Positions 23,289 to 26,486 of a stretch of 64,000 bases of DNA are shown piece after piece (the first letter of the stretch is position 1; each line of letters starts with the position of its first letter). This stretch comes from Halobellus captivus (lineage in GTDB: Archaea; Halobacteriota; Halobacteria; Halobacteriales; Haloferacaceae): positions 1 through 64,000 of the forward strand of contig NZ_RDQE01000004.1 in NCBI RefSeq assembly GCF_003697845.1, in the 5' to 3' direction. A program made the translations under genes and the position numbers. The notes beneath the pieces were generated by a model. That model had not been told where the DNA came from, did no database searches, and saw nothing but the letters and a program-made list of their open reading frames with translations.

Positions 23289-24656
23289 ATGGTTTTCAAC
23301 CCCGATCGGAGCGTGCGAGTCCAGGTGGCCGGCGGGCCCGACGGTTCCGAGCGTGACGGGACTTCCGCGGACGCGTCGAGCGTCTCGCGCCGGTCGTTCG
23401 TCCGGATCGGCGGGACCGCCGCCGGAGTCCCGCTCCTCGCGGGTGTGGCGGGCGGGGAGTCGGACGCGTCGGGAGCGGCGACGGACGCGTCCGACACGGA
23501 GGCGGACGCCGCAGAGCAGTGGACGGTCGTCGCGCTCCCGGACACGCAGTACTTCGTGGTAAACGATCGGTGGTATCGCTTCGTGCTCGACCAGATCGAC
23601 TGGATCGTCGAGAACGCGGACGCGGAGAACGTCGTCTTCGTCACACACGAGGGCGATATCGTCAACGAGGGCAACGAACCGACGCAGTGGGTGTGGATGG
23701 ACGTCGCGCTGTCGGCGCTGGACGGGGTGGTCCCCTACAGCACGCTTCCCGGGAACCACGACTACGCCGAGACCGGGGTCCGACGGTCCGGTCTGGACAA
23801 GTACACGGCGTACTTCGGCGCGTCGCGGTTCGCCGACTACGAGTGGTTCGGCGGGACCGGGCCGGGCGACGAGGAGGCGAATTCGTACCAACTGTTCTCC
23901 GCGGGCGGGTACGACTTCCTCCACCTCGCACTGGAGTGGGAACCCCGCGACGTGACGCTCCAGTGGGCACAGAGCGTCCTCAACCGGCATCCCGAGCGTC
24001 CGACCCTGCTCACGACACACTCGTACCTCACGGACGGCGACGCCGAGCGGGACACGAGGGGAGACGAAGAGGAAGTGGGCGAACTGAACCCCGGACGAAC
24101 ACGCTACGTCCAGGAGGCGGACGGCGACGGGAACCACGGTGAGGCGGTCTGGCGGAAGCTCGTCGAGCCGAACGCCCAGGTGTTCATGGTGCTCGGCGGT
24201 CACTATCACGAGAACGACGGCGAGTACCACCAGACGTCCGAGAATCGGGACGGACTGCCCGTCCACGAGATGCTCGCCAACTATCAGGACAGATACGGGA
24301 CCGGGTTCGGCCGGCTGCGACTTCTCACGTTCGTGCCCGACGGCGGCGAGGACGCTCCCGATCGCGTTCAGGTACATACGTACTCGCCTCACCTGGAAGA
24401 GTACGAGGCCGACGACGACAGCCACTTCTCCTTCGACCTCGACTTCGAGGACCGGTTCTCGACGTCCCTGCCGTCCCGGTCGCCCGGAGACGTCGACGAC
24501 GACGGCGACGTGGACGACGACGACGTCGAACTCGTCCAACGGCACCTCGCCGACGGGGACGTCGAGATCGACCGGGAAGCTGCGGACGCCGATCGTGACG
24601 GAGAGATCGACATCACGGACGTGGTGGAGATCGCGAACGAGCGGGGGTCGAGATGA
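23289..24656 (+). CDS. Tat-exported metallophosphoesterase with C-terminal dockerin domain
   Basis: 455 residues. SRRSFVRIGGTAAGVPLL (33-50) is a Tat signal, with the twin Arg unusually far in, after a 32-residue n-region. The catalytic domain shows the calcineurin-type set: LPDTQYF (D85), THEGDIV, LPGNHDY, TTHSYL and LGGHYHEND. From about residue 399 the tail contains two calcium-loop repeats, DVDDDGDVDDDDVELVQRHL and DADRDGEIDITDVVEIANE, spaced as in type I dockerins (DxDxDGxxxxxDxxxxxxxL). The next gene encodes a cohesin-like domain and overlaps this stop by four bases (ATGA). So the enzyme is probably docked onto that membrane-anchored partner outside the cell. The phosphoester substrate is unknown. 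Confidence 0.87.
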   Translation: MVFNPDRSVRVQVAGGPDGSERDGTSADASSVSRRSFVRIGGTAAGVPLLAGVAGGESDASGAATDASDTEADAAEQWTVVALPDTQYFVVNDRWYRFVLDQIDWIVENADAENVVFVTHEGDIVNEGNEPTQWVWMDVALSALDGVVPYSTLPGNHDYAETGVRRSGLDKYTAYFGASRFADYEWFGGTGPGDEEANSYQLFSAGGYDFLHLALEWEPRDVTLQWAQSVLNRHPERPTLLTTHSYLTDGDAERDTRGDEEEVGELNPGRTRYVQEADGDGNHGEAVWRKLVEPNAQVFMVLGGHYHENDGEYHQTSENRDGLPVHEMLANYQDRYGTGFGRLRLLTFVPDGGEDAPDRVQVHTYSPHLEEYEADDDSHFSFDLDFEDRFSTSLPSRSPGDVDDDGDVDDDDVELVQRHLADGDVEIDREAADADRDGEIDITDVVEIANERGSR

Positions 24657-25273
24657 CCCGGCCCGTCGGGTCAGCGGGACGGCGGTCGGCGGTGACGGCC
24701 GCCGTCACGGTCGCGCTCCTCGTCGGCGCGATCGCCTCGAGCGCCGGCGTCGTCGCCGCCGCCGACGCGTCGATCTCGATCACGGGTGCCGACGGCGGAA
24801 CCTCGCTCGAGGGCACCGACGGCGACAGGTTCGACCTGACGGTCGCCGCGAACGCGACGAACGTGTCCGCCTACCAGGCCTCGCTCGCCTTCGATCCCGA
24901 GGTCGTGGAGGTCGTCTCGGTGTCGGGGACGGACGACTTCGACGATCCGGTGGTGAACGTCGACGAGGAGAACGGCCGGGTCGCGTTCAACCAGTACCGT
25001 TCGTCGACCGTCGTCGACCCGCAGCTCGCGACGCTGACCGTCGAGATAGTCGGGAGCGGCGGGAACTGGACGTCCCTCTCGTTCGTGAAGCCCGAGACGA
25101 AACTCTCCGACGACGTGGCTCGGGAGCGGGGGATACGTCGGTTCGACGGCCTCACGGTCACCGCGGTGTCGGAAGCACCGACGACCGAAGCGGTCGCGCC
25201 GGGGTTCGGGGTGACGACCGCCCTCGCCGCGGGCGTGACGCTCTACGGGTACCTGTACTGGAGACGGGAATAG
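24653..25273 (+). CDS. Membrane-anchored cohesin-domain protein
   Basis: 206 residues. A Sec-type signal occupies 1-37 (TAAVTVALLVGAIASSAGVVAA). Residues about 40-170 form one cohesin-like beta-sandwich: ISITGADGG...LEGTDGDRFDLTVAANATNVSAYQASLAFDP, with VVEVVSVSG, GRVAFNQY and LATLTVEIVG strands. The hallmarks are a 'F-x-L-x-V ... NVSAYQASL-x-F-DP' pattern and the 'L-x-x-L-x-F-x-V' strand near the end. A C-terminal hydrophobic helix (about 182-203) followed by WRRE anchors it in the membrane. Its ATG overlaps the stop of the dockerin-bearing phosphoesterase, so the two proteins are made together. Cohesins bind dockerins through a calcium-dependent interface. That this pair interacts is inference from gene arrangement. 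Confidence 0.78.
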   Translation: MTRPVGSAGRRSAVTAAVTVALLVGAIASSAGVVAAADASISITGADGGTSLEGTDGDRFDLTVAANATNVSAYQASLAFDPEVVEVVSVSGTDDFDDPVVNVDEENGRVAFNQYRSSTVVDPQLATLTVEIVGSGGNWTSLSFVKPETKLSDDVARERGIRRFDGLTVTAVSEAPTTEAVAPGFGVTTALAAGVTLYGYLYWRRE

Positions 25274-25358: not shown

Positions 25359-26486
25359 TCACGTCCCGTCGGTCGCGTCGGAGAGCGACTCGATGCCGTC
25401 GACGACCTCCCGATCGATCCCGTCGGCGTGCCACTCGGAGCTCCGCGGGATCGCCGCGCGGTAGGTGTCGACGTCCGCGAACAGCTCCCGGAAGACCGCC
25501 TCCTCGGCTGCGATCACCTCCTCCAGCCGTTCGGTGAAGGACGGACCGGGACACAGCGCGTCGTACGCACGGAAGTACTCCTCGAGGAGCTCGTTCCACT
25601 CGTAGTAGCTGATCGCGTTGACCGCGTCGACGATCCGGTCCGTCGACGCCTCCTCGATCGCCACGTGATCGCTTCTCGGTGCCGCCCCGAGAACCACGAC
25701 GTTGTCCACGGTTGACTCCGCGACGTGGTCGGCGCGGGGGAACACCTCTCCGACCTTCGTGAAGCTCCGATCGTTCCCGGTCAGGTACTTCCGGTTGAGG
25801 AAGTCGACCCCGGTGTGGAGGAGACTGGCGTTCGAGTCCACGTTCAGTTCGATGAACTGGCTCACCTCGTCTCGGATGCGGTCCCGAACGTCGTCGTGTC
25901 GGACGTCGAGTTCGGGGAACGACCGGAGGTTGTACGGCTGGAGGTTCACCGACAACGGATATCCGAGGGCGGTCCCGTCCGCCCCGACCCAGAGTCGGTC
26001 GTCGGAGAGGTAGCCGGATCCCTCGTGCAACAGCGAGAGGAGCGTGTTCGTCTTTCCCCCACCGCGCCAGGCGGGGAACACGGTCGTCTCGCCGTTCAAC
26101 TCGACGCCGGATCCGTGAACGAGCGCGTAGCCGTCCTTCACGAGCGCCTCCCTGATCCGGAACTCGACGGGATAGGTGGCGAAGAACGGCTCCCAGTCGG
26201 GCGAGACGTAGACGTGTTCCCATCCCGGATCGACGGCCATGTACTTCGACCCGTTCCGGACGACGAACCGGTCGCCCGTCCACCCGTAGTGCTCCCCGGG
26301 ATCGCCGAGGACTGTCTCCGATTCGACGTCCTCGGTCGTCCGTTCGATCACTACGTCCGGCTCGCGGTCCGGGTCGTCGACCTCGAAGTGGTCGAACATC
26401 GTGTAGAACTGCCCGGTCGAGCGCCCGCCGTCGCCGCGCACCTCAAGCAGTACCGCTCCGAAGAAGTCGTAGTGTCGGCGTTTCAT
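25359..26486 (-). CDS. HPr kinase/phosphorylase-like P-loop protein
   Basis: 375 residues. GYALVHGSGVELNGETTVFPAWRGGGKTNTLL (about 119-150) matches the HPrK-type layout: a His-containing strand, a beta-hairpin, then a Walker A. Here the loop is A-W-R-G-G-G-K-T rather than G-x-x-G-x-G-K-S. GYLSDDRLWV (about 158-167) is the Walker B-like Asp pair. The N-terminal 100 residues and the C-terminal helical region are unassigned. HPrK-like ATPases without PTS partners occur in peptide and glycan biosynthesis clusters; the role here is unknown. No export signal. It converges on the cohesin gene and has its own promoter region to the right (26487-26775). Confidence 0.62.
   Translation of the reverse strand: MKRRHYDFFGAVLLEVRGDGGRSTGQFYTMFDHFEVDDPDREPDVVIERTTEDVESETVLGDPGEHYGWTGDRFVVRNGSKYMAVDPGWEHVYVSPDWEPFFATYPVEFRIREALVKDGYALVHGSGVELNGETTVFPAWRGGGKTNTLLSLLHEGSGYLSDDRLWVGADGTALGYPLSVNLQPYNLRSFPELDVRHDDVRDRIRDEVSQFIELNVDSNASLLHTGVDFLNRKYLTGNDRSFTKVGEVFPRADHVAESTVDNVVVLGAAPRSDHVAIEEASTDRIVDAVNAISYYEWNELLEEYFRAYDALCPGPSFTERLEEVIAAEEAVFRELFADVDTYRAAIPRSSEWHADGIDREVVDGIESLSDATDGT

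Follow-up and report, generated by a model that had tools for sequence, protein, structure and literature searches.

The window is a stretch of 64,000 nt of Halobellus captivus (contig NZ_RDQE01000004.1, positions 1 to 64,000), and all coordinates below are window positions. Two overlapping genes on the forward strand encode an enzyme with a dockerin tail and a cohesin protein, and a kinase-like gene follows on the reverse strand. Among named genomes, those of Halorubrum rubrum YC87 and of Halorubrum sp. 48-1-W are the window's closest relatives. The features are as follows.

23289..24656, + strand: calcineurin-like metallophosphoesterase of 455 aa, predicted to be Tat-exported, with a C-terminal dockerin (open reading frame; PF00149 and PF00404 above cut-off)
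23382..23456, + strand: twin-arginine signal region, SRRSFVR followed by a hydrophobic stretch (sequence)
23520..24470, + strand: phosphoesterase core with the metal-site motifs DTQ, HEGD, GNHD, TTHSY and GHYH (alignment of 27 homologs)
24483..24638, + strand: type I dockerin, residues 399-450 (PF00404; alignment of 19 loci)
24489..24524, + strand: calcium loop 1, DVDDDGDVDDDD, residues 401-412 (canonical EF-hand loop)
24585..24620, + strand: calcium loop 2, DADRDGEIDITD, residues 433-444 (canonical EF-hand loop; 19-locus alignment)
24653..24656, + strand: ATGA stop-start overlap (enzyme stop TGA at 24654-24656, cohesin-gene ATG from 24653)
24653..25273, + strand: cohesin surface anchor protein of 206 aa, with a signal peptide, one cohesin, a short spacer and a C-terminal sorting signal (open reading frame; PF00963)
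24752..25168, + strand: cohesin domain, residues 34-172 (AlphaFold2 pLDDT 96.0, pTM 0.88)
25199..25270, + strand: PGFG, hydrophobic helix and WRRE, an archaeosortase A-type sorting signal, residues 183-206 (sequence)
25359..26486, - strand: HprK-related kinase-like protein with a GGGKT P-loop (weak TIGR04355 and TIGR04352 matches)

The enzyme matched PF00149 (Metallophos) with 34.6 bits (cut-off 21.5). With the dockerin match, the RR signal and the conserved metal motifs, this bore out the first-pass annotation, which had proposed a Tat-exported metallophosphoesterase ending in a dockerin. The enzyme core without its dockerin was searched in family, class and named genomes, giving 105 distinct homologs, 28 with a dockerin and 77 without; homologs were present in 17 of the 167 family genomes. 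D8, H43, D46, H80, D81, H167 and G227 were invariant in the 27-homolog alignment of the core. The first metal-site motif is DTQ instead of DxH. Many homologs carry a DNRLRE domain between the catalytic domain and the dockerin, and it is missing from the enzyme in the window species and its two closest relatives. The family is also common in planctomycetes, acidobacteria and others (L142-L204), often within very large proteins, and no dockerin was found on these relatives in the loci examined.

The Pfam TAT_signal match of the window enzyme was weak (E 0.21), and the RR motif was present in all 28 dockerin-bearing homologs. None of the 28 had a lipobox cysteine. A C-terminal membrane helix was absent from them as well, the maximum hydropathy of the C-tail being low. 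Dockerin-bearing enzymes therefore have no other obvious hold on the cell.

The dockerin scored 31.6 bits against PF00404 (Dockerin_1, cut-off 22.9) and 35.2 bits in the genome search. Positions 1, 3, 5, 6, 9 and 12 of loop 1 were invariant across the 19 loci, as were the calcium ligands, and a sequence search with the dockerin also retrieved solved clostridial dockerins. The two EF-hand repeats read from the DNA at the outset were thus correct, with both loops canonical. Chance EF-hand-like acidic repeats were ruled out by the curated cut-off passed and by conservation of the whole locus. For the predicted dockerin fold in residues 399-452, the profile gave a positive answer, and the fold itself was visible solely in a model of homolog L078, where a read-through chain had the three-helix layout with moderate confidence. 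Compared with each other, the two calcium loops are not alike at repeat positions 10-11 and 17-18. These differences suggest that the dockerin would bind in a single orientation, unlike the dual mode of clostridial dockerins.

A genome-wide profile search found two Pfam dockerins in this genome, on the window phosphoesterase and on a PKD-repeat protein on contig C23. The second protein (L098:8079-10178, G000:C23) has PKD and Ig-like repeats and a C-terminal dockerin, and also a cohesin-like stretch scored by no model.

The cohesin matched PF00963 with 30.2 bits (cut-off 24.1) over residues 53-138. Among 17 orthologs of the cohesin protein, 13 matched PF00963 at E 0.1 or better. The AlphaFold2 model contained the nine-strand jelly-roll fold. 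Foldseek returned only cohesin modules or cohesin-dockerin complexes among its best 50 PDB matches, one of them the Archaeoglobus fulgidus cohesin 2xdh (TMq 0.76). The profile and structure checks, which had been set beforehand, thus agreed on the identity and fold of the cohesin. The dN/dS values were 0.48-0.65 for the cohesin and 0.20-0.25 for the dockerin, placing the cohesin under weaker constraint.

The C-terminus of the cohesin protein had been described as a membrane anchor with WRRE. The anchor stood, and it is better described as PGFG, a helix and basic residues in the layout of a sorting signal. A PGF motif, a hydrophobic helix and a basic end are the layout of archaeosortase A substrates (PMC8875312), and the window protein has all three. 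The PGF-CTERM model TIGR04126 did not match the window protein and matched 5 of the 17 orthologs. An archaeosortase A is encoded in the same genome (TIGR04125, 342.7 bits; cut-off 75). PGF was present in most cohesin-protein C-termini of relatives, and four orthologs (L064, L066, L077 and L078) had a terminal helix without PGF. Most relatives' cohesin proteins consist of a signal peptide, one cohesin, a long Thr/Asp/Gly-rich linker, a hydrophobic helix and a basic end, with a CARDB or a PGF-pre-PGF domain in the linker of some. The window species and its two closest relatives lack this linker, and their PGF signal comes nearly straight after the cohesin. In the cohesin anchor genes of L071 and L075, the frame is lost in or before the repetitive linker and the anchor is missing; they are either pseudogenes or the product of misassembly in low-complexity DNA.

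The ATGA overlap had been read with the right coordinates and reading frames, and it is likely to couple translation of the two genes. A 4-nt overlap was found in 16 of 19 loci examined, the remaining three starts lying 0, 2 and 6 nt past the stop. A cohesin gene lay directly downstream on the same strand for all 28 dockerin-bearing homologs, and directly downstream for none of the 77 dockerin-less ones. The 77 include 14 homologs with less than 1 kb of downstream sequence; without those the comparison is 28 with 63, still with no exception. The pair was conserved across genera and families. Because it is kept in 28 distinct loci, it is not due to chance, and it is no isolated example. The same 28 loci ruled out an assembly artefact.

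In a 46-homolog tree, dockerin and cohesin gene changed state jointly each time, with at least 3 changes on well-supported branches and 5 on the best tree. These joint changes are the honest count, as the Fisher value of the 28/77 table ignores relatedness; the sign test alone on them gave 0.25. In one genome two sister paralogs differed accordingly, L077 having both the dockerin and the cohesin gene and L079 neither. Co-divergence was r 0.77 for dockerin and cohesin and r 0.86 for enzyme and cohesin. The dockerin-cohesin partial correlation was only 0.25 after enzyme distance was removed, indicating that co-divergence was mostly shared history.

The genes around the pair encode a UDP-sugar dehydrogenase, two Gfo/Idh oxidoreductases, a DegT aminotransferase close to PseC, a hexapeptide acyltransferase, glycosyltransferases and a sulfatase, and the earlier view of a glycan island with a sulfatase was supported. 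The kinase-like protein scored 21.7 bits against TIGR04355 and 16.0 bits against TIGR04352, far under the cut-off of 200 bits, and had no Pfam match. With such scores it would be a distant relative of HprK-related kinases at best, and no member. Its gene was found in 16 of 16 family genomes with the pair versus 2 of 151 without. In most loci it adjoins the pair, as a rule immediately upstream and in the same orientation; the window clade has it downstream, in convergent orientation. In H. rubrum (L062) the gene is shortened, and the C-terminal part alone remains an open frame. A kinase inside the cell and a phosphoesterase outside suggest that the two control a phosphate group of a surface or secreted glycan.

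The pair was compared with known cohesin-dockerin systems. Clostridial cellulosomes (6kgf, 1g1k, 2vn5) share both module families with the window pair, in profile and in fold, and likewise combine a dockerin-tailed enzyme with a cell-bound cohesin. In contrast to them, the window pair has one enzyme and one cohesin, with no scaffoldin and no cellulase, and combines an ArtA-type anchor with overlapping genes, whereas the clostridial anchor is of the SLH or sortase type. A cellulosome proper was ruled out, as neither the gene nor the genome has more than a single cohesin. Several dockerin-bearing polysaccharide-degrading enzymes were not found in this genome, its two dockerin proteins being the phosphoesterase and the PKD-repeat protein.

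OlpA and OlpC of Clostridium are cell-surface anchoring scaffoldins with SLH-type attachment, and their genes are not known to form a fixed pair with an adjacent enzyme gene. As a single cohesin binds an enzyme dockerin directly in these proteins (3ul4, 4dh2), they are the closest functional analogue, with about 15% identity. The non-cellulosomal cohesin of A. fulgidus is archaeal and has the same fold as the window cohesin at about 17% identity. It has been called enigmatic, whereas the window pair is conserved as neighboring genes in many genera. The cohesin-dockerin proteins of ANME archaea (PMC9012536, PMC5244752) also form archaeal surface assemblies, and some of these genomes contain archaeosortases and PGF signals. 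Unlike the window enzyme, they are solute-binding and S-layer proteins. According to PMC9012536, no ANME protein has more than five cohesins, and large scaffoldins were absent from the archaeal cases described before. The two ANME papers contain no description of an overlapping enzyme-anchor gene pair.

The best-supported reading of these sequences is that the dockerin would stand in for a membrane anchor, the enzyme being captured by a membrane-bound or lipid-anchored cohesin. We consider it probable that the dockerin retains a soluble enzyme on an ArtA-anchored cohesin, where the enzyme targets a phosphate ester at the surface, probably one carried by a glycan. This would be the cellulosome principle in a form with one enzyme and one socket. 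The Tat route would export the phosphoesterase in folded form, with no anchor of its own. The cohesin protein would be exported separately and then held at the membrane, and archaeosortase A would most likely cut and lipid-link it at the PGF signal. The calcium-binding dockerin at the enzyme's C-terminus would dock onto the single cohesin encoded downstream, keeping the enzyme under or in the S-layer. There the enzyme would cleave a phosphate ester, the likeliest carrier being a glycan at the surface or outside the cell; the HprK-related kinase may influence the phosphorylation state of this glycan as well. In a fused-chain model of the L078 pair, with the stop codon read through to join enzyme tail and cohesin, pTM was 0.61 and the relative domain placement was unset.

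The substrate is where another explanation fares best. Docking could be real while the enzyme is a phosphodiesterase or phosphatase whose targets in the medium are nucleotides, nucleic acids or lipids, so that anchoring serves phosphate scavenging. By profile, the nearest relative of solved structure is a plant diphosphonucleotide phosphatase, a weak match (E 0.0013), and the phosphoesterase family has no assigned substrate. The glycan island around the window pair, a glycosyltransferase gene conserved in 8 of 28 loci and the DNRLRE domain of many homologs all speak against this reading, circumstantially, and we regard it as unlikely, though a serious competitor.

The dockerin might instead be a free calcium- or substrate-binding tail, with the cohesin protein binding something else and the adjacency being purely regulatory. 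Cohesin homologs were found in 68 of 391 class genomes and dockerins in 172, and many haloarchaeal genomes with dockerins had no detectable cohesin; other roles of haloarchaeal dockerins are therefore possible. Dockerins of haloarchaeal glycan-degrading enzymes have indeed been described as substrate binding (PMC10963439, PMC13260240). However, the 28/28 versus 0/77 coupling of dockerin and cohesin gene arose within one enzyme family, the two were gained or lost jointly on the tree, and specific mutual binding of archaeal cohesins and dockerins has been reported, as cited in PMC9012536. A free tail is accordingly improbable here. It is slightly more improbable still that the anchor is shared in a small surface network, with the PKD-repeat protein competing for it: Pfam does find just two dockerins and a single cohesin in the genome, but the second dockerin is unlike the window dockerin in sequence, its gene is on another contig, and anchors elsewhere adjoin their own dockerin gene.

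For the docked, surface-acting phosphoesterase, the modules, the fold and the docking principle are known. New with respect to the literature searched are the conserved haloarchaeal pair of an enzyme-dockerin and an archaeosortase-type cohesin anchor, and the linked kinase gene. In that literature, which did not include the review of non-cellulosomal cohesins by Peer et al. 2009 (PMC3035643), there was no joint treatment of cohesins and dockerins for haloarchaea and no report of a dockerin on a metallophosphoesterase. The conserved pair points to an unreported, conserved way of keeping enzymes on the cell surface. Lists of non-cellulosomal cohesins and dockerins go back years, and no clear purpose has emerged for them. 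With enzyme and anchor genes that are always neighbors and mostly overlap, this purpose becomes directly testable in genetically tractable haloarchaea, and the homologs with neither a dockerin nor a cohesin gene are a built-in natural control. The pair is also a candidate protein-protein clamp for high salt.

Putative docking loci of other kinds were also present in haloarchaea. At 23 further loci (L087-L096, L226-L238), a non-phosphoesterase dockerin protein was followed by a cohesin anchor on the same strand. The order was without exception among the non-phosphoesterase cohesin loci at which both were detected (23 of 23). The upstream protein was often a subtilase-cohesin-dockerin. These loci form another class of docking pair, and chains could arise in it through the cohesin that the enzyme itself carries. 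Three genomes, all from a single genus, encode polycohesin proteins: G300, G196 (L223, L224) and G401 (L225). In the largest protein (2089 residues, L221:7164-13430, in G300), the profile finds 14 cohesins, and 10 of them are also separate Pfam matches. Its C-terminus came close to PGF-CTERM (23.4 bits; cut-off 24.5), and it lies amid many genes for dockerin-bearing subtilases (L221-L222, G300:C1:74001-114000). Judged by its domains and neighbors, it is a putative haloarchaeal scaffoldin for proteases.

More tentatively, and with somewhat less than even chances, the kinase, the dockerin-clamped phosphoesterase and the ArtA-anchored socket may form a three-gene haloarchaeal module for surface phosphate editing, within a wider use of docking from single pairs to 14-cohesin protease scaffolds. 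If so, an HprK-related kinase in the cytoplasm and a phosphoesterase outside the cell would jointly set the phosphorylation of a surface glycan.

The phosphoesterase of L069 (Halorubrum sp. CSM-61, G140) clustered with that of G011, another genus of the family, next to Haloarcula, and stood apart from the other Halorubrum copies. This grouping suggests that the whole L069 unit may have been acquired by horizontal transfer.
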